A stretch of DNA of 64,000 nt, taken from positions 62,001 to 126,000 of the forward strand of contig VCJN01000285.1 in NCBI GenBank assembly GCA_006384855.1, written 5' to 3'. The notes under the pieces were generated by a model. That model saw only the letters and a list, made by a program, of their open reading frames with translations, ran no database searches and was not told the origin of the DNA. Of the stretch, positions 9,943-42,856 are shown one piece after another. Both the position numbers and the translations under genes were made by a program. Within the stretch, counting starts at the first letter, position 1, and each line of letters begins with the position of its first letter. This stretch comes from Tetraselmis striata. Its lineage: Eukaryota > Chlorophyta > Chlorodendrophyceae > Chlorodendrales > Chlorodendraceae.

Positions 9943-10429
9943 CCCCCCCCCCTCCGATTTGCCCCCCCCCCCTCCAGAAATTCTGTAGCTGGGTAATATT
10001 CTATTTTAAAGTACTGTGCACCGTACTGCCAGCCCGCAAACTGCGTTTCAAAGTTGAGTCTGGTTTTGCCAAAAAGGTCGCGCAGGCTGTTTTACACGGT
10101 CAAGAGCCGAAATTGGCAGGAAGGTTTAGCGAAAAGCGTGGAGGGAAAACGGAGTCAGGGGGGGCGCTGCGTGGAACGCAGCGAAAACTGGAAGATGGCA
10201 GGCTCAGCTGTTCTGGCTGCTTTTATGTCTACTCGTGCTGCACCCAACAAGGGCGCAACAACAGTTACTAGTTCCCGTACCACTGCGCAGCACTTGTAGC
10301 TGAAAAGCGGTTAGGTCAAGGATGGAAACCCCATAAACTAGTTTAGATCATTTCAAAGTTGAGTCTGGTTTTGCCAGTCTTGAGCGAACGGAGAGAGCGG
10401 TGGATTGACGGAGAAGGGGTAGCGCCAAG

Positions 10430-12055
10430 TCATGAAGGAGGCACTGGGAAGGCCACCGCTGCGGAGTCCTGTTGGACTTGGAAGTGGCGGAGAGGGGCGA
10501 TGTGTCCAAAGAAGAACCACGCGCCAGGAGAAGGAAGAACGTTGGGGTCGATGTAGTCCAGAACGACATCAGAGTTAGTGGCCCAACCGCCCTGGTAGCG
10601 GATGTGGGACAGTGGCGCTCCAATGGCGTTTGCTGCAGAGGCTGCGCCCTTGCGTAGACTGTGTGAAGTCCAGGAAGTGCCAGCAGGGGGGGCAGCGTTG
10701 ACTAGGTTGACTGCTGTAGACAACCAGTCTGACATCGTAGTAGCAGTCCAAGGTTTCGACTGCTCAGCCACATTGACAGCCCAGAAGTTGGAGGTAGCCA
10801 AGCCAACAGTAACCAGGGGGGCAGACTGGACGTTGTCGATGAAGTAGCGCAAGAGACGTGCCACTCGAGGGTGCTCGGACACTGGAAGGAGAAGTACGCG
10901 CAGGTCGTCAGGTCCCCGCCGGCCGGCGCGACCCTTCTCGCGGTAGATCTGCAAGGTGATGTTGTAGGTGTCGACATGCACATCTTGCACTCGACAGGAG
11001 ACGCCAGTAAGGCCCCTGGCAAAGAACAGGAAGTTGACAACCGAGGCCAAGAGGGCTCGGTAGTCGAGGTGGGACTCTGGGTAAGGAGCAGACACAATTA
11101 GCTCGGCCTTTGAGACGAAGCGGTAAGCTACATCCGCAGGCAGAGGGACACGCAAAGGGGCAGCGTCCAGTCGACGCTGACGTAACATTAACCCACGTCT
11201 TGCCGAAGTGAGGTGTAGGCTGTCCTTGGCGATCGGGACGAGGTTGTGCAGCTCGAAGAAGGTGTTGATGGCAGACAGATAGGGCTGCAGCGACTTAGCT
11301 GCGATATGCCCTCGCTCCCCGATCCAGGCAACGTACCGAACAACAGTAGCAGTAGTCGCCTCTAGCGGGCTGATGTTCTCGGAGTCGTGGCGGAACTCAG
11401 CGAACTGAGCCAACCTGCCGGCGTAGCTCTTGAGGGTCTGAGCGCTGAGGGAGCTGGAGAGCAGGTCGAGCGTCCGCTGGCCTAGCTCGTCTGAGCCGAA
11501 CGCGTCCTGTAGTCGGGATCGCAGTGACGCAGCCCACGGAGCGATAGCTGCGGGCTCGTCGATTACGTAAGTGCGTCGTTTTACTGACAGAGTGCCACCG
11601 GGACGGCTACTGTTCGCAAAGTACTCGGCAGCAGCGGTTAGGTTCCCGGCGGTTGGCCGGTAGTTGCTGGACGGGTTTGCAGTAGCTCCAGTACGGGTTT
11701 GCGGGGCTAGGTTCAGGTAGGAGGGCCGCCCCGCGCGCCCTTCGCGCTCATAGCGCCTGTCCCGTGCGTAACGTACACGCGCGAAACTTGGTCGTTGCGA
11801 ACCGGTTGTAACTCGTAGTGAAACAACCGACGAACGCAGAGATGGGGTTGTAAGAAAGGCGGATGGTTGAGCCGGCATGTGCAGGTGTGCGGATGGTTGA
11901 GCCGCACTCGGCTGTAGCTGTAAGAAGCGCCGCACCGAGGAAGGTCTAAATGAAGTCTGTAAGGTGGGGGGGTCAGGTCCTGGCACAGGGCGCTCATCCC
12001 GTCGTTGAGCCGCAAGGGTGCGCCTTGCGGCGGTCACCGAAAGGTGGCCTCGCAA
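10430..12055 (-). CDS. tyrosine recombinase of the YR element
   Basis: The open frame covers up to 541 codons. Its upstream limit has no ATG; the first in-frame ATG is at 11878, so the start is uncertain and fusion to Gag by frameshifting is possible. An SAM-like N-terminal domain (DELGQRTLDLLSSSLSAQ, TLKSYAGRLAQF) precedes the catalytic domain. The catalytic domain has an Arg in FFARGLTGVSC, the box HSLRKGAASAANAIG (H-x-x-R), the downstream HIRYQGGWATNSD and the nucleophile Tyr in VVLDYIDP. This R-H-R-H/W-Y set is the tyrosine-recombinase signature, and this type is typical of DIRS/PAT/Ngaro retroelements, where it replaces an integrase. All catalytic positions appear present and the frame is unbroken. 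Confidence 0.85.
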   Translation of the reverse strand: MRGHLSVTAARRTLAAQRRDERPVPGPDPPTLQTSFRPSSVRRFLQLQPSAAQPSAHLHMPAQPSAFLTTPSLRSSVVSLRVTTGSQRPSFARVRYARDRRYEREGRAGRPSYLNLAPQTRTGATANPSSNYRPTAGNLTAAAEYFANSSRPGGTLSVKRRTYVIDEPAAIAPWAASLRSRLQDAFGSDELGQRTLDLLSSSLSAQTLKSYAGRLAQFAEFRHDSENISPLEATTATVVRYVAWIGERGHIAAKSLQPYLSAINTFFELHNLVPIAKDSLHLTSARRGLMLRQRRLDAAPLRVPLPADVAYRFVSKAELIVSAPYPESHLDYRALLASVVNFLFFARGLTGVSCRVQDVHVDTYNITLQIYREKGRAGRRGPDDLRVLLLPVSEHPRVARLLRYFIDNVQSAPLVTVGLATSNFWAVNVAEQSKPWTATTMSDWLSTAVNLVNAAPPAGTSWTSHSLRKGAASAANAIGAPLSHIRYQGGWATNSDVVLDYIDPNVLPSPGAWFFFGHIAPLRHFQVQQDSAAVAFPVPPS

Positions 12056-12091
12056 GGCTCCTGCAGCTCCGACGAGCGGCGCCCCACACCG

Positions 12092-12967
12092 TCACTCGTG
12101 CTCACCTTCGCGGCCACGTCCACGTCCGCCGCCACGTCCTCGCCCACGCCCGCGACCTGCAGCTGCAGCCGCCACTCGAGAAGTAGCGGTCGCCTTGGCG
12201 CTGCTGGCAACGGTCGCCTCGAAAACACGACGCTCGTAGTCCCGCATGAGGTCCCCAAAGATCGCGGAACCCAGATGCTCCGAAGCAGGCTGAAAATGCT
12301 GAGCTCGCAGCACATCCAGAACACCTTGGTCACCGTGCACACGCTTGATGTCATTGAGCTTCCGTAGGAAGGCCAAACGAAACCGAAACGCCTTGTCGAT
12401 GGCCTCGGCGTGGTTCCGGGCTCTCGCGAGGTAGGGGGTGAAGTCCTGGTTGCTGGAAGGGACGTAGGGCAGTAGTTCGTCGAGCGCCACAAAAAGGGCG
12501 GCCATGTGGGCCCCGAAACACGACATCCACAAGTACTCCTCCTGGGCCGGCAGACGCCGGTCATCCTGCTTGAGGTACTCGTTCGTTAGGTCGGTGCTCA
12601 AAGGGAAAAGTCCAGGCACTCGGCTGACCGGTCGAACGGCCTCGTAACCAGACTCTGCTCTCTGCAGTAGCTCTGGCACCGCGAGGTAATCATCCTCGGC
12701 ACTCACGGATTTTGCTCCGACACGGCCGCTCTGGGCTAGCTCTAGCAAGTCGGGGCGCTCTGCGGCTCCCCCGCTGCCTGTCGGCTGTCTCGCGAAGCGC
12801 TGCCCTGAGCCGGAGCCATGTGCCCCTTCTCCATCAACAACGCGATCACGAGCCGTCAATTGTGCCACAGCTGTAGCCAGCTCTCGCAGTAATGAAGACT
12901 GGGCCCTCATATCTGCGTTCAGCGACTGCAGCGTCGGCTCGGCGACGGGTTCTTCTCCATCTGACAT
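12092..12967 (-). CDS. Gag-like protein of the YR element
   Basis: The frame gives 291 aa from the first ATG (MSDGEEPVAEPTLQSL); an open stretch upstream has only a GTG. The N-terminus is acidic and helical (ADMRAQSSLLRELATAVAQL), suggesting a coiled coil. The middle (about residues 125-250) is a compact predicted domain with CFGAHMAALFVALDELLPY. The C-terminus is a Gly-Arg run (GRGRGRGRGGGRGRGREG) that would serve as the RNA-binding tail in place of the usual zinc knuckle. The same protein, frameshifted, recurs at 26.9-27.9 kb. Position upstream of the recombinase in the same strand matches gag in PAT/Ngaro elements. Function is inferred from position and composition. Confidence 0.7.
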   Translation of the reverse strand: MSDGEEPVAEPTLQSLNADMRAQSSLLRELATAVAQLTARDRVVDGEGAHGSGSGQRFARQPTGSGGAAERPDLLELAQSGRVGAKSVSAEDDYLAVPELLQRAESGYEAVRPVSRVPGLFPLSTDLTNEYLKQDDRRLPAQEEYLWMSCFGAHMAALFVALDELLPYVPSSNQDFTPYLARARNHAEAIDKAFRFRLAFLRKLNDIKRVHGDQGVLDVLRAQHFQPASEHLGSAIFGDLMRDYERRVFEATVASSAKATATSRVAAAAAGRGRGRGRGGGRGRGREGEHE

Positions 12968-13080
12968 AGTAACGCACGGACGTACGGACGAGAATATCAC
13001 ACTCGGGTGGCGAGCCGGGTGTGGTCTTGAACAACCTGGGGTGACCTTGCTCGCAACGGGTTACGAGACAGTTTTTACAT

Positions 13081-13268
13081 CGCTGCGTGGAACGCAGCGA
13101 AAACTGGAAGATGGCAGGCTCAGCTGTTCTGGCTGCTTTTATGTCTACTCGTGCTGCACCCAACAAGGGCGCAACAACAGTTACTAGTTCCCGTACCACT
13201 GCGCAGCACTTGTAGCTGAAAAGCGGTTAGGTCAAGGATGGAAACCCCATAAACTAGTTTAGATCATT
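13081..13268 (-). repeat. 5' X repeat of the gag-YR element
   Basis: It is identical by eye to 10165-10352. The hairpin 13081-13099 (7-bp stem, TGGAA loop) marks its inner end and GGTTTCCATCC next to TAAACTAGTTTA marks its outer end on the sense strand. Confidence 0.85.
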
Positions 13269-14453
13269 ACAAGCGCCTGTGTGTTCAGTTTAGGGATGGC
13301 TGAGTGCCGCCGTCGCTTTCGCCCCGAGCCGGTGACTATGTCCTCGTGCTCCACGCACACCATCGTCACTTGCTCCACGAGATCAAAGGACAGCTCCGGG
13401 TCTATGTCCTTCGCCACATGCCGCATCAGCTCAGAGCAAGTGTGTGCTTGTAGCCAGTGCTCGTCAAAGACATGCAGCGCTGCCTGCCCACCGAGTAGCC
13501 TGCCATCCGAGGTCACGGCCACTTTCACAGTGCAGTTGGCGTTGCTTGCCAGCGCGCATTTGGTACTAGCTCGACGACGCGGCCGCTTACGGACCCTACC
13601 TCCGGCGCTAGGAACTGGCACAGGTTAGTGTAATGGTGTTTCCTGCTCAGGGTTGCAGCGGCATGGAGGTGGCGGCGCGTACATACCCACACTTCTCTGT
13701 CTGAGTGTGCGCACGACAACAGTTGGCCATGTAACCATTAACATACATATTTACAATATTTGGCCCGGTTGCAGTACGGTTGGGGAAGTACTGCCAATGT
13801 ACTGGCTACACAATTATCGGGGGGATACTGAATAAATCCCCCCCCCTCCGATTTCGGCCAGAAAAGGACCCTAAAACCGACAATTAAATCTCACTGGCCT
13901 AAGAGGGTTCTGCTTAAATGTAGGCTTTTTCTTTCCTCAGTACTTTCCGTGCATTCTCTTGAAACTCTCCCTGTGACCAAAAAGAATTACTTGATGATGA
14001 TGGCGGAACTCGTCGTCAACACACGCATACCGACATCACCAGCCACCGCCAGCCTGCGCGTCGTGTCACTCAGCACTAGGGGCTTTGTCTCGCATCCGCC
14101 ATTTCTGAGAACGAGCACAGTGATTGGTCGTGTATCGTCGGTATGCGCCCGCCACTGAAGAAGGAAGACATCGCCACACCAGCTACTACCTTATCAAACA
14201 CATATTTTCGTATTATTTTGCAGTCACCACTATCACGTGCGCAACATGGGAGTACGACGCGATTCGGATGCACATACGGAATCACTGCCGTGGAACTTGC
14301 CCGCTCTGAACGTGTCGGGTTCGCGTTGTCAATCTGCGAGCGACCCTGTGCTAAACCAATCACCCTGCCCGCAGGTCGGCGTCGTCGTGAAGTCGGTAAC
14401 CGTCGTGCCCGAATAGCTCCGCCGCAGCTGCCAACCGCTCACTGCTGGCAACA
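13269..14453. other. urease 5' flank
   Basis: A minus-strand open stretch at about 13290-13620 looks partly coding (contains DIDPELSFDLVEQVTMVCVE and a basic GSGRKRRRHS tail) but has no ATG and no recognisable relative; it could be an exon remnant. The rest up to the urease ATG carries no recognisable promoter motif. Confidence 0.35.
13870..13903 (-). repeat. right copy of the 34-bp inverted repeat
   Basis: It is the reverse complement of 9909-9942, apart from an extra G near the inner end. Together the pair could be terminal repeats of an older element into which the gag-YR element jumped, or two unrelated copies of a dispersed repeat. Confidence 0.75.
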
Positions 14454-17400: not shown

Positions 17401-17767
17401 GATCAAGGGCGGCGCCATCGCGTATGCTCAGATGGGCGACGCCAACGGCAGCATCCCCACGCCCGAGCCCCTCATCAACCGGCCCATGTTCCCGGCCCTC
17501 AGCGCCGCGGCCGCCGGCCCCGTCAGCATCGCCTTTGTCAGCGCGCGCGCCGCCGCCGCGAATGTGGGGCAGCAGTACGGGCTGTGCAAGCGCGTGGAGG
17601 CTGTGAAGAAGTGCCGCGCGGTGGGCAAGAAGGACATGCGGCTGAACAGCGCAACGCCCAAGGTGGTGGTCGACCCCGAGACCTATGTGGTGACCGCGGA
17701 CGGGGAGGTCCTCTCCTGCGAGCCGGCCGCCGAGCTCCCACTCACCCAGGGCTACTTTCTGTTCTAG
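14454..17767 (+). CDS. URE: urease, plant-type fused single chain
   Basis: This enzyme hydrolyses urea to ammonia and carbamate using a dinuclear nickel site; it is cytosolic in plants and algae. Seven exons join in frame: 14454-14516, 14665-14844, 14981-15226, 15326-15706, 15874-16647, 16741-17055 and 17228-17767. All introns are GT-AG, and the product is 832 aa. The order is gamma-like (1-100), beta-like (about 130-240) and alpha-like catalytic part, ending YFLF. Active-site residues fall at H396, H398 (THVH), carbamylated K479 (GLKLHEDWG), H508, H534, flap C581-H582 and D622. That is a constant offset of 11 from jack-bean urease, so the gene model is very probably correct and the enzyme functional. 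Intron 6 has a 42-bp tandem duplication. The UreD gene lies convergently downstream. Confidence 0.95.
17118..17201 (+). repeat. 42-bp tandem duplication in urease intron 6
   Basis: Two copies of a unit containing TGCATGCCTAATGCCAGGAT (17118-17159 and 17160-17201) sit just upstream of the acceptor at 17226-17227. They differ at a few positions, so the duplication is not brand-new. Confidence 0.8.
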
Positions 17768-20057: not shown

Positions 20058-20327
20058 TGACCTGCGGCGCTGTTCTGCAGCCGTGCAGTGCCCGACTGCC
20101 CGTCACCCTGCCTGGCTCGCCTCCCCGTTGGGCTGTCAGCGCGTGCCGGCGAGCAAGCCGCCCCGTTGGACCCGCACCCGCGCCCTCCGCGATGAAAGTA
20201 GACAAGTGAGCGAATAAGTCAGCAACGCCGGCACGATACCGATGAGCTTTCGCAAGCGACCACCAGAATTTTAGCCTAGAGAGGGGAGGCGGAATCGTGT
20301 GCGTTTGCATATATCTGGCGGGGAAGG

Positions 20328-22761: not shown

Positions 22762-24600
22762 CCTTCGGGGCTCCCGCAGTGGAGCACCCTCTCGCAGTAG
22801 TCTACTCGTCTTGAGGTTGGGTGAGGTGGACGCGCTCGACACCATGGCCGCTACTCGTCACGGTTGCCAAGACCGACAACTACGCCTACCGCTACAAATC
22901 GACGCGGGCGGAGGAGGACGTCCGTGTCGTCGAGGCGGCCATAATGATGTTGTCTCGCAAGACACTTCAACCCGGTCCGCATGTCCTCGCAACAGGGCGT
23001 CGTGGCATCAACGGTCGTTACACGCTGTGGTTTTCCGTAATTACTCGCGTAATTGGTCCATTTCGGGGGCGGCGCCGCTCATGCGCCGGTGTTTTGAGGG
23101 GGCTCGTTGCCCTCGCCCAAATCATACTGCAACAACGTTTGCTGTGGTCGCAGTGCTGGGAGGCGTTTGTGCGGCTCGTTCCGACGCTTCTCCGATGCCT
23201 CCTATATTGCAACGTCGTCGTCACAAGGACCACGACAACTTGCAGCTACCCGCCGCGGGGCAGCTCTACCATCTGGCGTGCATGACGTCTCGTGGTGTCC
23301 GCAACTACCCCTCGCCGACTCCGGATTGGAACCTCGGCGACAGTCGATGGTGCACCAGCAGCTGCCGCCTCGCCGCTCTATGCGAAGAAAGACCAACAGC
23401 GACAGCTTGCCGAGTCGGCGGGTCTTCTGCGACGTCGCCGGCAACCGACCCCGACACACCTAAGAGTCGGGAGGACCCGACCACACAGGGTCCCACGTTC
23501 CCGCGCCCCTAAGCGTTGTGCGTTTCACCCGCCACCCTGTTTCACGCGAGGCGGTGAAATAATAACCACCGCTGGTAATGGCAGCGGCCTTACACTGACC
23601 GTTGCCATCGCGCGATGTTGCATATCCATCCCTCGTATCATGCAGCGCCAGTACAGGTGCAGAGTTACCATCGCGTCGCGTACATCGTACGAGTACTTCA
23701 CGCGGAGCGCTCGCGCGCTCGTGCGCGCAGCTGTACTCGTCCTACTGCTGTCTTTACCCGTGCTTTGCTGGGTGCTCTTCGCCAACTTGGCCGCTTCTAA
23801 TGGCCTGAAAATTCGGCTCGTGCCGCACGCCACCACGGCGCGCGGCAAATGATGTAGGGCGCCGTCAGGAGACGGCGCCTTAATTCCGCGACACGTCCGG
23901 CCTATGTCGCGCCGGCGTCAACATCTCCCGTCCGTGTATATTCTGCGCCTGCGCCTCGATCGAGGTTCCTAAGCCTGAATCTCACATAACCTCTCGGCGC
24001 GAGACCATGTCTGCAACTCAAGACATCTTCCGGCTTCGTCTGGTCGGCACGCCTATGCCGTATGACTCGTCCTAGGTACGTCCTATGCCGCCTATCTATA
24101 TATGCCGTATGTCACATCTCATTCTCACATACAGTGCCTGCCGACTGCCCACGCTCACGGTCGTAAACGGACCGCGTGAAAAAGTCAAAAAACCAGACTT
24201 GATTGCATGTTGAAATGATCTAACCGTGTTTATGGGGTTTCCTAACAATTTAACTGTCCTAGTGCGACCCGTACGGTCTGTCTGTGGTTTCAACCGGTAA
24301 AGTAATTGGTACCATCGGGTTTCAGTACGGGCTGCCCCACCATCGCCCGCGAGCCCCGCGCTCCCGGCCGGGGATCTACTTAGGACAGCCACCAGCAGCT
24401 CGTCTGCCACCTTCCAGCTCGCTGCCTTTGGCAGCACCCTCCCGTTTTCCGCCTCCGCCCTGCGGGCTCCTCCTCCGACATCCCCCCCCCCCCCCCCCCC
24501 CCCCCTTACGCTAAACCTTTCTAGCCATAAAGTGGCGCTTTTCCGTGTAAAAAAGCCTCCACGCACTTTTTGGCAAACAAGGCTCGATTGCATGTTGAAA
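22762..24600 (+). mobile_element. non-autonomous YR-type element, 5'-truncated (copy B)
   Basis: It is the plus-strand counterpart of 6833-9297. The interior from about 22780 matches 8750 downward. Y1 is at 24185-24215, X2 at 24216-24435 with the hairpin GCTGCC-TTT-GGCAGC (24421-24435), and Y2 at 24571-24600. The 5' 0.5 kb including X1 is missing. A 24-nt C run lies between X2 and Y2. The hydrophobic VRAAVLVLLLSLPVLCWVLF run is again open here (about 23728-23790). Confidence 0.7.
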
Positions 24601-24681
24601 TCGCGATATTTATTCCTTTTAAGATATTTATATTGTATTTTTTTCTTATGTATTTCAGCATAATAGTTAGTACTAGAGGTT

Positions 24682-25564
24682 TTACAGGGAACGTTTGGTC
24701 TGCCGAAGATTTTCAAGTCTGGTTACAGATCGTGAAAATCAGGAATTTGCAGGCAAATATCAAGGCGGGGGGGGGGGGGGGGGGGGGGGGGGAGGGGGGG
24801 CTGCGGTGTGTTCGATGGAGCTTGCCACAGCAAAGGAGAGTGCATCGGTTGGCCGCCGTGGAGGCAGGTGGCGGCCCTGACCGGCCCCCGTAAACATGCG
24901 CGCATACGTGCGCTACGGGCGCCGCGCCAGGGCAATCCCGTAAAGTGAGAGAAACAACATAAACTAGTTAAGAACATTTCACAAGGAACGTCTGGTTTGC
25001 CGACTAGATAATGCCGGGCACAGCAGGCCACGGGCGGGGGTCACGGGCGGGATGTTGAAGGCGACGACATGCCAGTTGGGTGCACAAACGGGAAGGTTGT
25101 CCCCATACGGCCATGGATGAAGAGGTCGTACGTGGCGCGCGTTATATTATAGGAGCGCATGTCGGAGCACATCTCTAAGAGGAGCGGGTACCAAGCTTTT
25201 GTCAGGCAGGTAGGGAACGATGACAATGGCTGGGGCACCGTTGGACTCTAGTGCGGAGACAAGATTGCCGATGAGGTTCCAGGGGGGGTACTCTAGTTAC
25301 GTTTGCAACGCTATGCAGCGTCGGAGAGGCGCATGGCGTCGACGGCCTCACACCGCGGGTCACGCTAGCGGGCGTTGTAGCGGGGCAGGAGGGCGTTCTC
25401 GGACGTCGCGAAGCGGTCGATGGTGCATGCGCCCCATTTAGCAGTGAGCGAGGCAAAATGACGCGGGTGAATCGCCAGTCGTCGAAATCAATCGAAATTG
25501 AAAGTAAAATACAACTTCTAATCCGCTGCTCTCCTCCGCCCGGACCGTGTCGTTCTAAGTGCAA
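24682..25564 (-). mobile_element. 5'-truncated RT-RNase H YR-type element
   Basis: It corresponds to the last part of the element at 39.8-42.9 kb in inverse orientation. It carries the RNase H/NPPW region remnant (25100-25564), Y1 (25001-24974), X2 and Y2 (24704-24682, GGCAGACCAAACGTTCC). The coding part is shifted and interrupted. Only about 80 bp separate it from the previous element, tail to tail. Confidence 0.7.
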
Positions 25565-26064
25565 GCCATGCCATCTCTAACCATAATAGGGACACATGTG
25601 TGTACTACAGATGTAGTACATATCACACCTCTTCTTTGTCCATCCCCGCCTCCTTCCGTCGCAGCCTTAGGCTGCCCCGCATGCTTGCTTTCTCTGACTT
25701 CGCGGCGTCTCCGTCTTCCGCGCCATGTTCTTTAGGGAGCCCCAGGCAGCGTATGGGTGTTTGGTCCGCTATGTGTGCAACTTCGACCCGTTGCTCGGAC
25801 AGGCATCTAGTTAGGGCGGCGCTGTGTTGCCGTCCATTCCCACTAGTGGGGTATGTCCCGCAGAGGAAGCGCATGCGGATTGAGGCAGCCGAGGCGTCCC
25901 GCCCTGCCCTGCGCCCCGTAAAAGGGTCTCCGCCACCAATGGAGGTGCCATCTCAAGCATGTGGTAGTGGTGGTTGTGGTTAGAAGGATACGTTACTTGG
26001 CCCGAGGCCAGTGAGGGGTCGCGATCGGCGCGCCGCTGGGGCGCATGGGGGTTTTGTGTGGGCA
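25565..26064. other. unidentified, coding-like stretch on minus strand
   Basis: A minus-strand frame 25623-25874 has an even composition (QRVEVAHIADQTPIRCLGLP) but no ATG, no family resemblance and no clear splice partners. A (TTCAAT)-type end at 25483-25505 suggests it belongs to another retroelement tail. Confidence 0.2.
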
Positions 26065-26090
26065 GGGGGGGGGGGGGGGGGGGGGGGGGG

Positions 26091-28080
26091 CTCATAGGCT
26101 GTCCACGTCTACGTCCATGTAGTATTCTTCCTCGACTCGGCGCCTGGGTCTTGTTCTTCGTCGGCCATCCTCTCGTCATCGTTGGGGAGAGCGGGTGAAG
26201 GGGGTGGAGTGAGGGAGTGGATCGGGCCGCCCGTGCTGAGGGAGGCGATTATTTCTGCGATGCGGATGTGTCTGCCGGGTGAGCTGCGGGAGCTGCCCAG
26301 CTCGTCCAAGCCGAACGCTTCCTCTAGACGGATCCAAAGTTAGGCCGCCCATGGGGCGAGCGAGTCTTCGGGCTCGTCTATCACGTAAGGGCGACATATG
26401 ATCGACGTGGTAACATGGGGTCGGGCCATCCCGGCAAAATATTCGGCGGCGTCGGTTAAGTTGCCGGCAGATTAACGCAAAACGGGAAACGGTTGGACGG
26501 GTTAGACTGGTACTAGTACGGGTTTGCGGGGCAAGGTTTAGGTAGGAGGGCCGCCCCGCGCGCCCGTCAAGCTCGTAGCGCATGTCTCGCGCGTAGCGTG
26601 CACGCGCGAATGAGGGTCGTTGCGAGCCACTTGTAACCCGTAGAGTAACAACCGGCGGACGTTGTGAAGAAATTGTACGGGAGACGGGATGTTGCACCGC
26701 CGGGTATATGCGTGGGATGGTTGACAAGCCGCACTCGGCAGTAGTTGTAAGAAGCACCTCACCGAGGAAGGTCTAAATGAAGTCTGAAGTAGGGGGGTCC
26801 GGTCCGGATACGGACGCTCATCCCGTCGTTGAGCTGCAAGGGTTCGCCACGCGGCGGTCACCGAAAGGCGGCCTCGCAAAGCGCTAGCAGCTCCGACGGA
26901 AGGCGCCCCACGCCATCACTTGTTATGCTCACCTTCGAGCCCTTGCCCGCGACCAACACCACGCCCGAGTCCACTCCCGCGACCTGCGAGCGTCGCTTGC
27001 ACGCGAGCAGTAGCGGTGGCCTTGGCGTTGCTGGCAACTGTCGCCTGAAAAACCTCGGCGCTAGTACTGATGCATCAGGCAGGTCGCCGAAGATCGCTGA
27101 GCCCAAATGCTCCGCTGCGGGCTGAAAATGCTGAGCCCGCAGCACGGCCAATTCCCCTTGATCACCGTGCACACACTTGATCTCGTTCAACCTCCGCAAG
27201 AAGGTCAGCGGAAACGGAACGCCTTGGCGATGGCCTCGGCGTGGTTGCGCGAGGTAGGGGACCGGAACGTAGGGTAGCGGCTCGTCGAGAGCAACCAAGA
27301 GAGCGGCGATGTGAGCCCCAAAGCACGTTATCCAAATTAAATCCTCTTGGACCGGCAGACGCCGGTCATCCTTCTTGAGGTGGTCGTTCGTAATATTGGT
27401 CCGCAAGGGGAAAAGCACATGCACCCGGCTGACCGGTCGAACGGCCGCGTAACCACGCCCTGCTCTTTGCAATAGCTATGGCAAAGCGAGGTAGTTCTCC
27501 TCGTCACTTGTGGATTTTGAACCAACATGGCCGCTCTGGGTTGGCACTAGCAAGTCGGGGCGCACTGTGGCTCCCCCGCTGCCTATCGGCTGCCCCGCAA
27601 CGCGCTGTTCGGACCCAGCGGAGCCATGTGTTCCGTCTCTATCGACACAGCGTCCACAAGCCGTCAGTTTGCCCCACGGCGATGTGAGCTCTAACAGCAA
27701 TGTAGACTGAGCATGCATGTCTGCTTGAAGCGATTCGATCGTCGGCTCATCGGCGACGGGGTCTTCTCCATTTTGCACGGTGACGCATGGACGTACGGAT
27801 GATAATAATACACACGGATGGTGACCCGGGTGTGGTCTTAAAACAATATGTGACCTTATTGCCCGCAACATGTTACCAGACACTTATTCGTTGTGTGTAA
27901 CACAACGAAAGTGGAAGATGGCTACCTCCACTGTTGCGGCTGTTTTTATGTCTACTCGTATTGCACACAAAGGGACGCAAACGACGGGTGAACTAGTAAC
28001 CCGTACCACTCAGCAGCACAACATGTAGCTGGAAAAGCGGTTAGGAAAGGATGAAACTCCGTAAACTAGTTAAGATCAGT
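26091..28080 (-). mobile_element. decayed, 3'-truncated gag-YR element
   Basis: From its 5' end on the minus strand it has X1 (28080-27887), gag in at least two frames (27883-26858) and the N-terminal part of the recombinase (26879 to about 26300, VTAAWRTLAAQRRDERP). Then homology is lost at a poly(G) tract. The hairpin at the end of X1 is TTCGTTGTG-TGTAA-CACAACGAA (27887-27909), different in sequence but the same in shape as in the young copy. Confidence 0.75.
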
Positions 28081-29175: not shown

Positions 29176-29276
29176 GGAGGTCTAATTTACGCCCCTATTC
29201 GATTGGATTTCAGATCACATATTCATTATCCGAGACTCGGGATGTGATTCTCGTATGTGTTCGAAAAGATGCTACA

Positions 29277-30366
29277 CACAATGCGAGTCTCGTTTTGCCA
29301 AAGAAGCGCGCGACTTTAGTAAAAGCACCCGCCACATCACCTTGCGAGTAGAGTGGGATGAAGTCAGTGGATATGCAAGAAGCGCTACGGCAGAAAGGAT
29401 ATGAGCGCAATGGACCCTCCAGCACCACCTAAGTAGTAAGTAGTGTTGGAGTGTTCCGGATTGTGAGACCTGTCAATGGTCAGCTGGCGGCAACTGTCAG
29501 CCGCCGCCACGCACTCTAGAAACTTCGGAAATTCCTAGAGTCCCGGCGCATCGTGCAAATTAGCCGCGCTAGCCGGTAGAAGTAGTGTTCGCGAGTGGCG
29601 GCGCAAATGATTGACTGACAGCGCGCCGCTCGGTATGTCTGCCTAGCCTCAGTTAACTACTGGACAATTATTACGCATCACAATGCGAGTCTCGTTTTGC
29701 CAGGGAAACTGAAGGGCGTTGGTCACGCCAGGAAACGGTAAGGGGGATTGTGGATGACGGCGCTGGCCGTAAAGCCAACGGGGTCGAAAAGGAGGAAAAC
29801 AACTTGCCGCCGGCGGAGTCCAAAATCCCGGGAACGATGTAGGTGTGGACGACGCTGCTGCCATCCACCCAGTCGCCTATCCAACAGATCTTGGGGAGGG
29901 GAAACGCCAGCCGCGGAACCGGCCGACGCATCGCCGTTGCGCAGACTGTGCGATGTCCAGACAAAGCCAGGGCGGCGGGCGCTCGTCCAGGCATGGCGGG
30001 CGACGGGAACCCACTGGGTAGCCCTATCCGATGTTCATGACCGAGGGCGGTCACCGGGTAGCTGCCAAAAGTGCGTAGCCGCCGGTAGCACGATAGCCCG
30101 GTAACGAGCGAACGCATGCATGACATCCGCAATCTCCGGGTGGGCCGACCGCGAACTCTTGAGGACTCGTATACCAATTCGACCGTGGGTTTTTGCCTCC
30201 CGACGAAAAAGCGTGATCGTACGGGAGTCAACCGCGATATATCCCCGACGCGGCCGCTGGTACTCTTATGTGACCGGTTGAGCAACAGGAAATTGACCGC
30301 GATACCGAGGCACGCGCGGAAAATGTACCAGCAATCGGAGGCATGTTTCATCGTCATCACCGCCAC
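29277..30366 (-). mobile_element. third YR-element subfamily, recombinase remnant with Y-X-Y end
   Basis: Direct copies of GCGAGTCTCGTTTTGCC at 29277-29300 (Y2) and 29680-29702 (Y1) bracket an X-like 380 bp. Minus-strand sequence 30366-29703 reads as the catalytic half of a tyrosine recombinase with shifts: an Arg-containing LTPVRSRFFVGRQKP, a degenerate H-x-x-R region and WVDGSSVVHTYIVPGI with the nucleophile Tyr. Its sequence is closer to PAT-type recombinases than to the gag-YR family here, so it is a separate lineage. It is not functional. Confidence 0.6.
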
Positions 30367-30370
30367 GCAT

Positions 30371-31096: not shown

Positions 31097-33343
31097 TCAG
31101 CACAGAAAGTGGTCGTGCTGACTGCAACTGCGGGTCTGCTGAAACTGGAGCAGCGATGAGTAGGTCACATCCGCCACCCCGGTGAACAGCATCTCCGAGT
31201 CGGGGCTGAAGCAGCAGCCAGAGATCTCGCCGAACAGGTCGACTTCCTGGCTCAGGCGGTAGCCAGAGGCCACATCAAAGAGGTGCACAAAGTCGGCGGG
31301 CTCCGCCATCGCCAGGAACCTGCCGTCGCCGCTAAAGCGCAGCGACCGGACCGCGCCGATGCGGCCCATGAGGGTGGCAAAGGAGGTCTTGAGGTAGCGG
31401 ACGTCCCACAGGCGGGTGGTCATGTCCTGGCTGCCGGTGGCGAGAACGCAGCCGCTGGGGTGCCACGCCGCCGCGAACGAGTAGTGCAGGTGCCCCGTCA
31501 GCCGCGCCACTTGCTTGCCGCTGTTTGTGTCCGCCAGAACGGCCTCCGCGTCGTCCCCTACAACGCACATCAGCTGCCCGTAGGGGCGGCACCAGAGAGG
31601 GGAAGGTCAGCACCCCCACACCGGGCAGTCGCAGGGCACAGTGGACAGCCCCATTGTTGCGCATTCAGATTCGCGCTGGAGGGGGGTGGTAGGCGGCGGG
31701 GGGTTCACGTCTGGGCATGTTGGGCTGGCCGTGGCGTAGTTGACCGCCCAGGGGAAGGTGAATTGGCCTGACAGTTTAAACGTCTCCGCATCAAACATGC
31801 GGACCAGGGAGTCGTTGTTGGACGCCAGGATGCGGAGGCTGCCGCTCGGGGACGTGTGGAGTTCCACGGCATTGGTGATGCCGTTGTCGCTGCTCGTCAC
31901 GCGCCCACTGCGAGCGGCCAGTGGCGTGTATTAGTGGCCGTGTACATTATAAATGGGAGAAAGTCAGGGAGGAGGGAGGTGTGTGTGTGTGTTGGAGGGG
32001 GGGGGGGGGGGGGGGGAGACCTGTAGGCCACCGCGCTGCTCTCGCTGTACAGGTTCTTGGCAACCAAGTCGCCGTGAAAGCCGCCCACGACCAGCAGCCC
32101 GTCCTTCACGCACTGCGTGCACACCTGGACGTCGCTAAAGCCGGGCGGAGCGGCAGTGGTGTTGGACCCCGACAGGTCAAGCACCTGTGGAGACACCACA
32201 CCACAGGTCAGCGGGTTTACATGTGCTGGAGGGAGCACTGCGCAAGCCCAGGGCCGGGCCATGGGAGCCAAGGGGGCGCTGCACGGGCTGGGCGCTCCGC
32301 ACCGGGGTGCTCTTGCGGGTGATGGTGCTGTAGTGCATGATGCAGTTGCGATGGTTCAGGTACACATCGTGCTTGGAGGTGGCGCTGACGAGGTTCCGAA
32401 GCTGGGGCGCGAGGAGGCATAGAGTGTCAGCTCTCGAAAAGGCAGGGGGTGGACACGTTACGGAGGGACGCAGGAGAAGCAGCACGGGCAGGGCGAGCTG
32501 GTGGGCGGGCGGCGCACCTGGAAGTGGACGATGGACGAGCGTACCGCACGCGAGTTCCTCACAAATTCAAAGAACGCGTTCCCCTACAGCAAACGGGCAC
32601 ACAGCGGCATCACTCTTGCGCAGACTATACGAACATATATTCCCAGCAGGGGGCCGGGGGAGGGGGGGGGGGGGGGGGGGGCTGCCACTGGGCGCACCTT
32701 CTCCACAGGCGGCTCGCTCGCCTCCAGGGGCGCCACGGTGATGTCCTTGTTGGCGTGCGCCTTGTAATTCCGCAGCCGCTCCAGCTGCGTCGGCAAGGAA
32801 GTAGTGTGCGGCAGGGCTCAGGCGCTTCCCGGCTGGTTTTGATCGCATGAGATGCTAACGTATCGCAGCGGAAGGGGAAAAAAGGGGCGGGGGGGGGGGG
32901 GGGGTGTTACCCTGTAATCCTTCCGTGATAACCGCAGTCTGTCCCAAGGGATACCCTGGTTTTGCGAGGGGATAGGGTGGGTGGGAGGGCAGACAAAGAG
33001 GGTTCTATCAGACAGCATGCGGGGCTGCGCGTAACAAGGCTGCATAGAGTGGGCACGAGCTAAAGGTTGTGTGTTGTTTTGAAAGAGGCACCTGGATGTC
33101 TATGCCCGCCATGGCCTGTTTGGCCGTGGTGTCCTCGCCTATCTCCTCGTCATCGCTGAAGCTCTGCGTGCGGGCACGGTCATGAGTGAGCAACAGCAGA
33201 CAAGAGGGAGGGAAGAGGGAAGTGGACGGTGGGTGGTTCGCCCCGGGGAGGCAAAAGGTTGCGCTCACCTCCAGTTCCTCTTCCTCCTCCGCCTCCATGT
33301 CGCTATATACCTCCGAGCAGGTGGGCTGGTTGGCCTCCGTCAT
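31097..33343 (-). CDS. plant-type WD40-repeat protein (C2A9.03-like)
   Basis: Nine exons join in frame: 33343-33269, 33163-33092, 32955-32911, 32784-32698, 32583-32518, 32401-32303, 32184-32021, 31907-31709 and 31573-31097. The product is 427 aa. The acidic N-terminus (MTEANQPTCSEVYSDMEAEE, then SFSDDEEIGED) is followed by GIDIQ-GIPWDRLRLSR, NAFFEFVRNSRAVRSSIVHF and LRNLVSATSKHDVYL. WD blades then follow (NGITNAVEL, ASNNDSLVRMFD, HLHYSFAAAWHPSGCVLATG, FLAMAEPADFVHLFD, DLFGEISGCCFSPDSE). This arrangement is that of a land-plant/fungal family of unknown biochemical role. Three introns carry long C runs on the sense strand soon after the 5' splice site. The gene is divergent from the LYAR-like gene with 1.46 kb between starts. 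Confidence 0.88.
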
Positions 33344-36382: not shown

Positions 36383-36850
36383 AATGCCGCTGAAGGGCAA
36401 GTTGGGTAGGGCCAGGAAGCTGCAGTGTGATATGACTTGCGCTTCTTCACCTTTTACCAAACGCAATTATGGCGACCGGCAATCAAGGCTTCAACGGTGT
36501 GCAAATTCATATGACAAGCAGGCAATATCCGATATCTGCACAGCACTCTTGCATACTACATGTATGTGTGTTGCGCATACAGTCATTCGCTATAGGGGTA
36601 GTGAGGCATCCGACTGTGCAGCATCCAGCACGACCCTACCAGGAGTTAATGTCACATTCAGGGGGGTCGGTATCTATGAGGTCTTTCGCAGAGAGCATCA
36701 TTCCAGGATGCAGCGATGGCCGCGCCTGGCGAGCAGCAGCCAGGAAGCGCGGAATTTCCTCTGCGCGGCCCAGCCGCGTGCTGAGTGCCTCACAGGAAAT
36801 CTGTCGCCAACCCAGCGCAGCATTCCGTCATGTCAACATAAAGCTAAGTG
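36383..36850. other. LYAR 3' flank
   Basis: No exon, repeat or clear TGTAA was found. Confidence 0.3.
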
Positions 36851-37683
36851 ATCCTGCTGGAAGATGAGCGTGCAGAGATGCGTGGGAGGTTGCTGAACCT
36901 TGATGAGCGCGAGCGCCTCCGGAGACTCGTCCTCAAAGTCTGACAGATGTGCAATACGTGTGGGTTAGCGGATGGGACACCTACGTACACGCCGCGGTTG
37001 GCTGCGTACTCTGTGATGTCCTGCCATCGCGCACCTGCGTCCCAGAGTGCAGCCATCACCATGGGCAGGATGTCCGCCTCCCGGCCGCGGCCCTGCCTCA
37101 TCAAGTTCTTCGCCAATAGCAGCCTGGGGTACAGGTCGGATGGCCGCGCCTGTATAAAGCAGGTGCGGCAGACGGCATCGCAATGAGAGCGAGTTGAGAA
37201 GCATCGGAACGCACAGCGACCGATAACGCTGTTTGCGCACGAAACGAGTCGGCATGTGGGGGGATTACCCGTATGCAGCACCCCAGCCGGCGCTCGCCAT
37301 CCTCCAGAACGCATCGCCGCCCGCGGCGTCCGTGTGTCTGCCGCACGCAAGAGCGGCCATTAGACGCCACTCCGAAGATGGAGAAGTGTGCAGGCTGGTG
37401 TGTGAGTATCTTTCTGAGTGCATCTGTATCTACGAGTGCCCTCCTGTGTAGATGGCCCGGGTGCTGCATCCAATGCTCCGGTCATCACCTGCCCATCTGG
37501 GTGGTCGAACGTGTCCCTTATCGATTCCTGAACAAGCATTACAAGATATCCGTCAGGCCTGCGTCAAGGCCGGCATGATGTCGCGCAGAAAGAAGGCGGC
37601 ACACGTACGCAGTGGGCAGGGTGGAGCTACCCAGACTCACCGCCAGCAGCTGCTCATACGCTGACTGCTCCATCGCTTTCAGG
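36851..37683 (-). CDS. unidentified multi-exon gene or remnant (partial)
   Basis: Exon-like pieces with proper splice borders occur on the minus strand. One of 14 codons (37683-37641, LKAMEQSAYEQLLA) is followed by gtgagt. A longer one at about 37200-36995 contains DLYPRLLLAKNLMRQGRGRE and ILPMVMAALWDAGARWQDI. Another begins after a CAG near 36945 (FEDESPEALALIK) and runs to about 36851. I could not join them with certainty, and I do not recognise the protein. It may be a real conserved gene with small exons or a decayed one. Confidence 0.35.
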
Positions 37684-38394
37684 CTCAGCACGCAGAGCAC
37701 AGGCCTTTGCCTGTCTCTCATTGCCAGCCAGCGTCTACCGGACGGGAACCGCTGAATTCTAACCGCGCGGCTGCCGCTGCTATTGGGGCTCGCCCTAGGC
37801 GCACCCGCGCCAGTCATCACGCGGCCACTCCGGCAGGAGCTTGGGTATATCATCTGTGTAGGACGCGAAGCCTGTCGCTCGCATGTCCGACCTCCGCGCA
37901 TCTGCCGCGGGCGAGGATGTTGCGGAAGCGTTTGGCACAGGCCGGCAGGGGGTGGATGGCGGGGGAAGGGGGGGAGATGGCTTGAAGAGAGGAATTCGCT
38001 CGCATACCTACCAGAACCCTCGACGACGCAACGCCGGCGATGATATAACCAACCGAGGCGCGAAGGAGGCGCCGGCGTCGCCGACGTTTCGTCGACCGCG
38101 TGAGACCGTTGCGTCGTTGCAGACCGTCGTCGTATCCCGGTATTGTTTGCGCGCTTCAGCACGCTCTCCGATCCACAGCAGTAACGTGTCAGCGCGAAAT
38201 AAACGCGATATTAACCGCCAGCGCGATAACCAGCGCGATGAACACTACTGTACATACGCGAGCAAGCAGCGCATCAATATATCGCAGTCGTCAGTAGAGC
38301 AGGACAGCAGTTAGTACTAAGGTACCGGTACCTGTACTTGTAGCGACTAGAGGGTTCATACATCGTCGTCATTAATGCTCGTATGAGTACTGTA

Positions 38395-39540
38395 CGGGTA
38401 CACCTACCCACCCACCCACCGCCTGGGCGGGCCCGACGACCGTCCTCGGGCCTCGGAATCGCGGGCCCTTCCTCCGCCTCAACCCCCGGCTGGGGATGGG
38501 GGCGGGGATCTTGCATGGGTGGCGCCTTGGTAGCCTTGGCCCCGCCCGTGCTTCCACTGCCGCGGAGGAGCAGTGTGAGCTGGACACCGGCGTCTCACGT
38601 CGTTGCTAGTCCGGTCAAGTCCCCGTTCGCTGTTCTTTGAGCACCCTCTCCCTTCCTGTCCTGTCGGCGCGTCCACATCACATTCGGCCTAGTGCCGCTA
38701 TTGGAGTGGCCCGGGATATTGTGCTTGGAAGGGAGTTCTACGTTCGGCGGAAGGGGACGCGGCCGAGCTGGCGGCGGATCTGGCGCTGGGCGGAACAACG
38801 CGCGCTGGACACCGGCGTCTTACGTCGTTGCTGGTCCGGTCAAGTCCCCGTCCGTTGTTCTTTGAGCACCCTCTCCCTTCCTGTCCTGTCGGCGCCTCCA
38901 CATCACATTCGGCCTAGTGCCGCTATTGGAGTGGCCCGGGACGTTGTGTTGGGAAGGGAGTTCTACGTTCGGCGGAAGGGGACGCGACCGAGCCGCCGGC
39001 GGCGGATTTGGCGCTGGGCGGAACAACGCGCGCTGGACACCGGCGTCTTACGTCCTTGCTGGCCCGGTCGGCTCTCCATTCCCTACTCGTTGAGCACTTT
39101 CTCCCTTCCTGTCATATTGGCGCCTCCACATCGCACTCGGCCTAGTGCCGCTATTGGAGTGGCCCGGGATGTTGTGATGTGGAAGGCGTTCTACGTTTGG
39201 CGGAAGGGGACGCGACCGAGCTGGCGGCGGATTTGGCGCTGGGTCTGTTGCACGCCCGTGGCGACCCGTTCTGGATTGGACCCCCCCACTTCCGCTCCTT
39301 GCTGCAAAACCTCTACTTCGAAGCCCCTTTCATGTCGGCGCCTTCACATCACATTCGGCCGAGTGCCGCTATTGGAGTGGCCCGGGATTGTGTGCTGGGG
39401 AGAGCGTCCCTACTGCGTGGAGCGGCGGCTGGCTGGTGGCGATGCCTGATCGGTGGCTGTCATGGCGGTTCCCGCCTCTTGTGGCCCGTAGCTGGATTTT
39501 CTTTTGGATTTCTGCATGAATTTCTTGAATTTTGCAGCTA
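38395..39540 (+). mobile_element. 225-bp tandem-repeat element
   Basis: After a unique 170-bp head (CACCGCCTGGGCGG, shared with 20.53 kb), the unit starting CTGGACACCGGCGTCT repeats at 38580, 38805 and about 39033 with a 225/228-bp period. A diverged tail follows, ending TTGAATTTTGCAGC. The plus strand stays open for 270 codons across all units (about 38637-39449), so indels have kept the frame: VLSAPPHHIRPSAAIGVARD recurs every 75-76 residues. No known domain. It could be a satellite-bearing non-autonomous transposon or part of a repeat protein. Confidence 0.55.
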
Positions 39541-40710
39541 GCACATGTAATCATATATAGTACTTTACGGGTAGCACGCGCAGTGTTGGAAATTCTGTCA
39601 CTGCCATCAATTCGTCTTGCAGAATGCTACGGCATTTTGCTTCATGACCATATTGCGGAGCGTCGACTACCCAGGGTTTTCCGTGATTGGATTGCTGCCA
39701 AAACGGCCGCCGTCGTAGAGACGCTGCAAGGGTTTCACTGGTGCCAGTCCTGGCCCGGGGCGGAAAAAAAAACACGCGCAGCGGATGTGTTCTAGTTTAT
39801 GTGGTTTCTCTATCTACCTGCACGAGATAGCCCTGGCACGGCGCCCGTAGCGCGTGTGTGCGCGCGCATGATTGCGGGGGCCGGTCAGGGCCACTACCTG
39901 CCTTCACGGCGGACCGACCGGTCACTCTCCTTTGCTGTGGCACGCTCCATTGAGCGCACCACAGCAAAGTCGCGGCAGTTTTGCCGTGCAGGGTGCCGGT
40001 CTTCCGCCATTGTACCATGTACGGTGAGCGGAGTCTTTCGCCCCCCCCCCCCCTGGGAGAAACCCGTTAGGGTTTGTGTGGTTAATGGACGCGCGCCGCT
40101 TGCGACGTGCTAACTACTACCCGCGAACGAGCTGCTGATTACTCGCCCAACGCGAGGAGAGGACGAAACCGCAGCGCTTCCCCATTCAGTGGAACAAGGT
40201 CCAAGCCCTTCGACCAATGTCGACCAACAGTAACCCCTGGCTGCCCCTTGCTTCCCGTGTGGGCATGGCTCGACCCGTACTGGCCCCTACTCGGCGTAGG
40301 TGTCGCGATGCGCTCCGACTGGGGCGTATGCCGACGCACGCCCGCCGTCTAGTACAGATTCGAGTACAAAGTGACAGTACACTGCCAGTGGCCAAGCCAG
40401 CGCCCAGTGGCACATGGCTTCTCCCACGCCGCGGCACTCCTACTGTGCCGCGCACCGTGGACCCTGACGCCGACGCGGAGGGGGCCAGCGGAGCGACAGG
40501 GCGCTCTGCTCGCCCCCCTCGCGACATCCATCCCGCCAATTCATGTACTCCCGACTCCCCCTTGCTTTATGAGACAAACATCGCGTCCGTCGTAATCTCG
40601 GCAACTGGCAAGCCGCTGGTGCGAATCGCAGTGTTCTCAACTGGATCTCCAGAGGTGTACGCGTTCTTTTCTTGGACGGGCTTGCCCCACTTTCTTTTCA
40701 TCAGGGGGTG

Positions 40711-42544
40711 TCAATGGGGGATGCTACTGCTGCCCAATTGGAGTTTATGGACGGTGAATTGGCTCGCTTCCTGGCCGTTGGGGCCTGGGAGCGAGGCTAC
40801 TGCGCAAAATGGGTGTCTCGGTTGTTCTGGGTTCCTAAGCCAGGAACAAACAAATGGATGCTCATCATTGACCTTCGCCCCCTGAACCGCTATTACGAGA
40901 CGCGTGATCTTTCGTTCGAGACGCTTTCGCATTTGCGCAATCTTGCGCGCCCTGGGGACTACATGTTGTAGACGGACATGCAGGATGGGTTTAACGCGAT
41001 TGGAATCGCCCATGAGGACATGGACTTTTTCACCGTCGATTACCGCGGCACTCTGTACCGATTGGCTGGCCTTCCCATGGGCTGGTCTCTGTCCCCATAT
41101 TACTTCTGCCAATTCACCAACGTCCTCACTAGGGCATTGCGTCGTAACCCGGCTGAAGCAGACGGCACGCCTATTCCCCGGCGCCGATTTGGCCTACGCA
41201 TGTTACCCTACATGGACGATTTCATGTTATTTCTAACTCGGACTCGGGCTGAGGCTATCTGGCAACGTGACTACATCGAACGCCACCTTTCGGGATTTGG
41301 TCTGCTGCGCAACCCCAACAAGGGCGTGTGGGAGCCCACCAAGAAGCTCGTGCACCTGGGCTTGGAAATTGACACATCGGGGTCGCCTACTCTTCGTGCG
41401 CCTGCTGAGAAACTCGTTGGCATTGCTCGCGCGGCAAAATGCCTAATCCAACGAGCAAAACGCAATCGTCGGTGGCTGCCGGCTCTCGAGTTGGCCGCTC
41501 TCGCGGGCAAATGCCAGTTTCTCTACTTGGCCATCGCCCCTGCACGTTTCTATCTCCGCGAGCTGCATGATGTGCTCAAGACGCGTGACTCTTGGTATGG
41601 CCGCGTCAAGCTCACCCGCCAGCTCGAACGCGATTTGAAATGGTTGGGTGGCCGTTGTGTTGGGTGAACGTGCCCACCCAACACAACGGCCGGCCCATTA
41701 ACCGCCCTGTCGAAACCGGATACCTACACGTTGACAGTTCGTCGTACGGTTGGGGTGCCGTTCTGAACGAGCACCATGAAGCTCGGGGGTTTTGGTACGA
41801 CGATGGCCGCACTGCGCACATTACTCTGAAAGAGCTCAAAGCCGTCCGCGTGGCTATTGAGTCCTTCCTCCCCATGCTCCGTAACCGTCACATCCGCTTG
41901 CACGAGGATAACCAAGCGGTTGTCAGCGTCCTCACCCACCTCACTTCTCGCTCTCCGCGCCTCATGGCTGAGCTACGCAAAACATGGTACCTCGTGTACA
42001 CGCACGGCATTACCCTTTCCGTGCGCTACATCCATTCTGCGGCGAATATCTGGGCTGACCGCCGTAGTCGCGAGGTTGACTGCGACGACTGGCAGTTCAA
42101 CCCTCGTCGATTCGCCTCGCTCACTGCTAAACGGGGCGCTTGCACCATCGACCGCTTCGCGACGGCTGAAAACGCCCTCCTACCCCGCTACAACGCCCGC
42201 GGTGCGAGGCCGTCGACGCCCTGCGCCTCTCCGACGCTGCGTGGCGGTGCGAACGTAACTGGTGTAACCCTCCATGGAACCTCATCGGCGATCTTGACTC
42301 CAAACTGGAGTCCAGCGGTGCCCCAGCCATCGTCATTGTTCGCTACTGGCCTGACAAAGCTTGGTACCAGCTCCTCTCAGAGATGTACTCCGACATGCGC
42401 TCATGGAAGCCGCGCCACGACCTCTTCACTCCTGGCCGTACTGGCGACCGCCTTCCCGTGGGTGCACCCCGCTGGCCTGTCGTCGCCTTCAACATTCCCA
42501 CCCGTGACCCCCGCCCGTGGCCTGCTGCGCCCGGCATTTTCTAG
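40711..42544 (+). pseudogene. reverse transcriptase - RNase H polyprotein, broken
   Basis: The RT domain runs from about 40729 to 41645 with SRLFWVPKPGT, LIIDLRPLN, LPMGWSLSPYYF and the catalytic YMDD (LPYMDDFML). RNase H (about 41720-42100) shows HVDSSSYGWG, LKELKAV and HEDNQAVVSV. Then comes the conserved post-RNase H segment with CNPPWNLIG and DLFTPG (42203-42544), characteristic of DIRS-like elements and reminiscent of an adenine-methyltransferase NPPW motif. Lesions: an in-frame TAG at 40969-40971, a frame change at the RT/RNase H boundary near 41645-41667, and a small deletion shifting the frame near 42201. Stop at 42542-42544. Confidence 0.85.
41650..41691 (+). repeat. perfect 17-bp inverted repeat at RT/RNase H boundary
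   Basis: The left arm 41650-41666 (GGCCGTTGTGTTGGGTG) is exactly complementary to 41675-41691 with an 8-nt loop. The RT frame ends inside it and the RNase H frame passes through it. Confidence 0.9.
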
Positions 42545-42856
42545 CCGGCAAACCAGACGTTCCTTGTGAAATGTTCTAAACTAGTTTAGGTGGTTTCTCT
42601 ACCTGTACGAGATAGCCTGGCACGGCGCCCGTAGCGCGCGTGTGCGCGTGCATGATTGCGGGGGCCGGTCAGGGCCACTACCTGCCTTCACGGCGGACCG
42701 ACCGGTCACTCTCCTTTGCTGTGGCACGCTCCATCGAGCGCACCACAGCCCGCCCAACCCTCCCTGGCTATGGATTTGTATGCCAGCAAATTCCTGATTT
42801 TCAAACCAGTAACCAGACCTGGAATGTTTAGGCAAACCAGACGTTCCTTGTGAAAT

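Follow-up and report, generated by a model that had tools for sequence, protein, structure and literature searches.

Does a 64,000-nucleotide stretch of the chlorophyte Tetraselmis striata hold a retrotransposon system whose reverse transcriptase (RT) and tyrosine recombinase (YR) are carried by separate elements with shared ends? This was the original prediction for three elements on contig VCJN01000285.1, positions 62,001 to 126,000 (G000:C221:62001-126000, hereafter the window), and we followed it through the whole assembly (224 Mb, 2903 contigs). Two families with divided coding content were found, one carrying a recombinase and a putative Gag, the other an RT-RNase H, which have a recombination junction and a target preference in common. 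From sequence comparison we consider it fairly probable that they form a two-part tyrosine-recombinase retrotransposon, the families helping each other in trans.

Two element families with divided coding content

The window holds one complete element of family 1 (gag-YR), with its open reading frames (ORFs) between split direct repeats:

10046..13266, minus strand: family 1 element, complete, A1-gag-YR-B1A2-B2, 3221 bp, delimited by repeats, ORFs and flanks
13081..13266, minus strand: A1 repeat, flank GTAA, then TGATCTAAAC, from repeat comparison and flank reading
12092..13060, minus strand: 322-aa ORF, putative Gag by position, without a Pfam match
10430..12091, minus strand: 553-aa tyrosine recombinase ORF (Pfam), with the HxxR and Tyr motif recognised by eye
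10165..10375, minus strand: B1-A2 internal junction and A2 repeat, from repeats and the junction pattern
10046..10070, minus strand: B2, the right end, TTTGAAA with flank C, from border reading

The A repeats of this element span 192 nt with 99% identity. Its recombinase matched Phage_int_SAM_1 (2.2e-7) and, under the curated cut-off, Phage_integrase (0.0012). Genome-wide, at least 78 recombinase matches are listed, at 97-100% identity and with no internal stops; this is a lower bound, 78 having been scored out of 7756 candidates. Exact B1-A2 junctions of the gag-YR type number 566 in the whole genome. For each family, 30 loci were fetched as the match plus 1.5 kb on each side. The gag-YR loci began with their own A1 in 30/30 cases, both borders were present in 29/30, and the 322-aa length of the putative Gag frame was kept in 28/30. 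Eight loci fetched with a looser junction pattern comprised six of gag-YR type, one of RT type and one of neither, and divergent gag-YR copies exist. Tandem gag-YR copies occur at spacings of 2916 (C2249) and 3203 (C764). No YR relatives were found in phages, and no YR or RT relatives in viral contigs. A 34-nt inverted repeat (9908-9941 / 13870-13903, 97% complementary) brackets the region with the gag-YR element, and may mark the termini of another element that received the gag-YR insertion.

Family 2 (RT only) is represented in the window by a decayed copy:

39788..42855, plus strand: family 2 element, decayed copy, A1-RT/RH-B1A2-B2 (RH, RNase H), from repeats and Pfam
40244..42541, plus strand: RT-RNase H-(weak Dam/methyltransferase, MT) coding region, in pieces where its relatives have a 763-aa frame, from Pfam and comparison
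42547..42749, plus strand: B1-A2 junction and A2 repeat, from repeats
42831..42855, plus strand: B2, the right end, from repeats and border reading

Its A repeats measure 134 nt (98% identity) and its B repeats start at 42547 and 42831; the left end was set by eye because the core is altered. Pfam matches were RVT_1 (1.7e-10) and RNase H (1.1e-5). Genome-wide, 151 RT matches were found and 150 listed, mostly 87-93% identical to the window copy, which is a decayed outlier of its family; an open 763-aa frame without a stop was present in 29 of the 150 listed. The RT loci outside the window began with their own A1 in 29/29 cases and had both borders in 25/29. The element is about 3050 bp long, and the RT frame stops just short of B1. 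One open frame (L034) matched RVT_1 (8.4e-17), RNase H (9.4e-6) and Dam (0.0059; 16.7 bits, under the curated cut-off of 28.1). With the Dam part being sub-threshold, this domain order matches the RT-RH-MT series given for DIRS1 pol in the available portion of PMC3266345. Exact RT-type junctions number 98 genome-wide. They lie downstream of a listed RT match by 850-950 bp (77 junctions), 950-1000 bp (two), 1000-1210 bp (two) or 6.4-8.3 kb (four), and 13 are without a listed match. Directly upstream of the window RT element, at 38542-39243, a 225-228-nt unit is repeated in tandem about three times.

The original prediction thus holds for the split direct repeats, which were measured at all three positions it named. 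Its first element, described as Gag and recombinase without RT, keeps the recombinase on the Pfam matches and the absence of RT on 30/30 loci, and the Gag by position. Its second, described as RT-RNase H without recombinase at 39796-42856, keeps both domains; the borders now stand at 39788-42855 and the copy is decayed.

No copy with both enzymes among the loci read

The 60 fetched loci were searched with tblastn (E <= 0.001). YR and gag were found in all 30 gag-YR loci, and RT in none of them; RT was found in all 30 RT loci, and neither YR nor gag in any. Abundant intact gag-RT-YR copies with the same ends, which according to the original prediction would make both types simple deletion derivatives, were absent from these 60 loci, drawn from a genome with 1174 junctions. 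Between the 78 listed YR and the 150 listed RT matches, two pairs lay within 8 kb, both of them opposite-strand neighbours. The first 100 gag-YR junctions of the listing have no listed RT match on either strand up to 8 kb away, a weak test because only 27 of the 150 RT rows are on contigs in that range.

The RT copies with a distant junction were considered as candidates for full-length joint elements. Three of them (C819, C1006 and C1208, junction 6.4-8.3 kb from the RT) carry a common dispersed tandem-repeat element, and on C1208 the far side of the insert runs back into the C-terminal RT frame. These three candidates were rejected, C1208 as a nested insertion, C819 and C1006 taken as the like from the shared repeat; about 4 kb of these inserts and a fourth long copy (C2768) were unread. 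The dispersed element itself (L076, G000:C1208:11000-11800) has a 436-base unit at a spacing of about 595 bases and stands beside RT copies on three contigs.

A shared recombination site and target

The junction pattern TGAAATGNTCTAAACNNGTTTANGNGGTTTC has 1174 exact matches in the genome and its reversed form 0, so the pattern is not due to chance. The internal junction reads alike in families 1 and 2, TGAAATG(A or T)TCTAAACTAGTTTA. A common core had been claimed for all three window elements; this stood for the gag-YR and RT elements and not for the third type, whose core is TCTAAACGTGTTTA instead.

A degenerate target, GWWH|Y, is common to both families. On the left flank, G stands at -4 in 20/30 gag-YR and 16/29 RT copies, the next two bases are A or T in 27 and 28 of 30 gag-YR and 27 and 28 of 29 RT copies, and the last base is A, T or C in 29/30 and 29/29. 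The right flank opens with T or C in 29/29 gag-YR and 26/26 RT copies. Under a matrix built from 29 gag-YR sites, 25 RT sites averaged +2.8 and random flank 14-mers -6.7; the RT-site score was not reached by any of 20,000 resampled means, and the reverse test also gave 0/20,000. By eye, no duplicated target bases were seen in the listed flanks of either family.

Apart from this site the repeats differ: the A repeats of the two families align over about 25 bp of the recombination site only. Neither family therefore seems to have arisen from the other by recent deletion, and selection for one recombinase fits the shared ends on unrelated repeats better than recent shared descent does. That one recombinase specificity would serve both families, as originally predicted for their integration, is well supported by the agreement in junction core, orientation and target preference.

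Selection on both gene sets and renewal of the repeats

Codon variants were counted among the fetched copies to compare non-synonymous with synonymous polymorphism (pN/pS). The YR gave 46 synonymous and 28 non-synonymous variants among 30 copies (pN/pS 0.22), and gag 30 and 26 (0.30; 28 equal-length frames of the 29 found). The RT, from the 12 of 30 loci with the exact 763-aa frame, gave 71 and 63 (0.29). Purifying selection acts on the copies of both families. Ratios of non-synonymous to synonymous divergence (dN/dS) were 0.11-0.34 in nine of 11 comparisons of divergent gag-YR copies; comparing the window RT copy with L034 yielded 0.14 across 357 codons, with values of 0.23, 0.51 and 0.65 in the three other pieces. 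The original prediction had proposed to look for purifying selection on each family separately, and it is seen in both. Together with the lack of a joint copy among the loci examined, this selection supports the view that gag-YR and RT persist as two distinct sets of working genes.

The repeats carry a second signal. Over 183 bases, A1 and A2 were identical in 25 of 29 gag-YR copies; three copies had one difference and L002 had 41 (ungapped). The A2 of eight other gag-YR copies was 87-99.5% identical to that of the window family, L066 being of another type, not gag-YR, in this comparison. Among 25 copies of the RT family, A1 and A2 differed by 2.2 within a copy versus 3.1 when re-paired (0/2000 permutations). 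The repeats are probably renewed during copying in both families. Each family also has one short form, A1-internal-B without A2-B2 (L009, in which A2 is absent, and L055), with target-like flanks. These short forms and the gag-YR tandems are consistent with cDNA circles, each carrying a single B-A junction, that the recombinase inserts into the chromosome.

A model of reciprocal help

A mechanism can be proposed for the two-part retrotransposon. Family 1 would supply a Gag-like protein and the recombinase, and family 2 the RT-RNase H, with a weak trace of a DIRS-type methyltransferase domain. The family 2 RT would copy each RNA; the internal B1-A2 copy would then guide closure of the cDNA into a circle with one B-A junction, along the lines of the general circle model for DIRS and PAT elements. 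The family 1 recombinase would exchange the junction TGAAATGWTCTAAAC with a chromosomal GWWH|Y site. Type-3 elements, which have neither gene, would ride on both families. Trans action of RT and of Gag/YR, passage of family 1 through RNA and the circular form are all inferred; one RT may copy all the elements, in a genome that also holds a 696-aa Dam-RT family. The system might further be obligately bipartite, which we hold as a real but more tentative possibility: an autonomous member would be nonexistent, the two selected families would have to meet in one cell, and the type-3 elements would be satellites.

Type-3 elements and a chimeric remnant

The third predicted element and several remnants, three of which (24680-28078, 24186-24600 and 29269-30369) go beyond the original prediction, complete the set in the window:

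6833..9297, minus strand: type-3 element, split repeats, GTG-type core, without a recognised protein, from repeats and Pfam
24186..24600, plus strand: tail (B1-A2-B2) of a degenerate type-3 element, from junction and repeat comparison
24680..28078, minus strand: chimeric remnant, 5' part of gag-YR type and 3' part of RT type, from sequence comparison
25490..26289, minus strand: dispersed repeat of about 800 bp, exactly between the halves of the chimera, from genome matches
29269-30369, minus strand: degraded remnant with a weak recombinase match and two B-like repeats GGCAAAACGAGACTCGCATTGTG, from sequence comparison

The A repeats of the type-3 element measure 218 nt (95% identity). Its three scanned ORFs had no Pfam match, in keeping with the prediction that it codes for neither enzyme. 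The flanks of this one copy read, by eye, GGTA|TGATCTAAAC and GAAA|C, and 130 exact junctions with the type-3 core are present in the genome.

The chimera begins with A1, gag and the initial portion of YR (family 1, 75% identity), continues with the 800-bp stretch and ends in the RT C-terminus, B1-A2 and B2 (family 2, 83%). It was considered as an RNA recombinant formed by template switching, or as an ancestral joint element. Both were rejected, the 800-bp join being a dispersed repeat, both boundaries of which are common to 23 of 53 listed matches within about 13 bases. With an A1 of family 1 type, an A2 of RT type and a join that is exactly a dispersed repeat, the chimera is explained by ectopic recombination; our preferred form of this is recombination between two nested insertions of the 800-bp repeat.

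The recombinase match of the 29269-30369 remnant is 31% identical over 112 aa, and a Pfam scan of the remnant gave no match. Perhaps it belongs to another recombinase lineage.

Weighing the model against alternatives

Several points weigh against mutual help between the families. A division of labour in trans gives RT-only copies no obvious reason to keep their frame, barring a cis-preference. The reading at sequence level covers about 71 copies, the majority of the 1174 exact junctions lying outside it, and the choice of fetched loci, mostly those that best matched the window's proteins, favours open frames. The exact 763-aa frame is present in only 12 of the 30 fetched RT loci, and 13 of the 98 RT-type junctions are without a listed RT match, with one further junction, 8.3 kb away, not read. 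Higher ratios occur in the gag-YR comparisons, with dN/dS 0.41 in one short L068 segment and 0.57 for L064-L068, and the 322-aa ORF is taken as Gag from its position. Finally, a further RT family of DIRS type, which has a Dam domain, is present in the genome, with 20 of the 122 Dam matches falling in a frame of 696 aa. In one of its copies, on C723, a weak recombinase match lies 5.4 kb upstream on that copy's own strand.

This Dam-RT family is a possible rival helper, the main one. Both families could be passengers of a complete gag-RT-YR element, either one of low copy number or the Dam-RT family itself, with their own genes surplus. The RT-RNase H encoded in a 601-base read beside a Dam match of this kind (L078, G000:C2465:291000-291600) is of DIRS type and shares 24% identity with family 2 across 186 aa (Pfam RVT_1 0.004, under the cut-off). 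Together with the C723 match, a further set of weak recombinase matches at profile positions 126-167 and the complete YR elements described in the available parts of PMC8547959 and PMC4157794, this gives the passenger explanation some substance. Surplus genes ought to decay, however, yet three frames stand at pN/pS 0.22-0.30, and none of the 60 loci is a joint copy. A Dam match (of 122) and a recombinase match (of 150) come within 10 kb of one another in only two cases. Contigs as far as C549 carry 21 Dam rows; a listed gag-YR junction stands within 8 kb of one of them (on C132, 7.5 kb away and upstream), and a type-3 junction within 8 kb of another (on C55, where the Dam match is sub-threshold). 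We regard passenger status for both families as unlikely.

Other recombinases in the genome were sought with Pfam PF00589, which gave seven at E <= 0.001. Three of these, L073-L075, are copies of the gag-YR element that have gaps or a disrupted frame. The integrase genes L069-L072 (C1804, C2009, C396) were set aside for neighbours that look bacterial by eye, and possibly lie on contaminant contigs.

Family 1 might alternatively be a Crypton-like DNA element that moves through excised circles and needs no RT, with the RT family borrowing its recombinase. It does have a recombinase and no RT, its tandems and the single-junction short forms fit DNA circles as well, and its exact junctions outnumber those of the RT family (566 versus 98). 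Against this, A1 equals A2 within copies while A varies among copies, as expected if reverse transcription uses an internal template; an element that is excised and reinserted would keep its repeats unrenewed. Gene conversion could imitate such renewal. A second, Gag-like ORF is also conserved, and we consider a Crypton-like family 1 improbable.

That both families are simple deletion derivatives of one complete master is very improbable. They do share junction core and orientation, and the remnant at 24680-28078 has a 5' part of gag-YR type and a 3' part of RT type. But their A repeats have only about 25 bp in common, so the two families are long separated or unrelated; the 60 loci gave no cross-family protein match, and the remnant's gag-YR A1, RT A2 and dispersed repeat at the join point to ectopic recombination.

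Comparison with known systems

PAT-like DIRS elements are reported from Chlamydomonas and its relatives in the available parts of PMC8226300, PMC3266345 and PMC4157794. PAT, TOC and Kangaroo, of the DIRS order, have the same split repeats (A1-B1A2-B2), a tyrosine recombinase and a DIRS-type RT-RNase H; as far as the accessible descriptions go, they hold RT, MT and YR in one element, whereas the gag-YR and RT families here share the recombination site alone. Split repeats were found in both families and gag, RT-RH and YR in one element in 0/60 loci: the YR lies in the gag-YR family (0/30 RT loci) and the RT-RNase H in the RT family (0/30 gag-YR loci). Ngaro and VIPER/TATE are also laid out as A1-[ORFs]-B1A2B2, their ORFs coding for Gag-like, RT-RH and YR proteins, and are complete elements, unlike the families here, in the portions available of PMC8547959, PMC6681497 and PMC12278014. 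Layout and enzymes are those of the known DIRS order; the division over two families appears to be new.

The wheat centromere families RLG_Cereba and RLG_Quinta are likewise two families with shared ends, thought to be mutually helpful, and Quinta has an open GAG. According to the available part of PMC11302176, Cereba is fully autonomous and only Quinta lacks RT and integrase, whereas here each family lacks something that the other has.

The gag-YR family resembles Cryptons in having a recombinase without RT, and differs from them in its split direct repeats and conserved second ORF. Cryptons are not known to have either split direct repeats or Gag.

No reciprocal retrotransposon pair was found in the literature on split, two-component or reciprocal elements, a search that the founding PAT, TOC and Kangaroo papers lay outside. 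Some Chlamydomonas TOC elements may have been described without an RT, which would lower the novelty of the arrangement.

Non-autonomous elements are usually viewed as parasites of complete ones. Two families each keeping the gene that the other is missing, with no complete master, would instead amount to reciprocal dependence among transposons, and would bear on selection upon trans-acting genes and on the origin of multipartite genomes; an obligate pair would resemble a multipartite virus with its separate segments. The model lends itself to testing, since junction, target motif and the two gene sets are all short and clearly defined.

Genomic setting

The window DNA is eukaryotic, with host genes at 55735-57099 (plus strand) and 31097-31606 (minus strand) that carry a tubulin-tyrosine ligase domain and WD40 repeats. 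TTTAGGG/TTTTAGGG-like repeats are present in the assembly.

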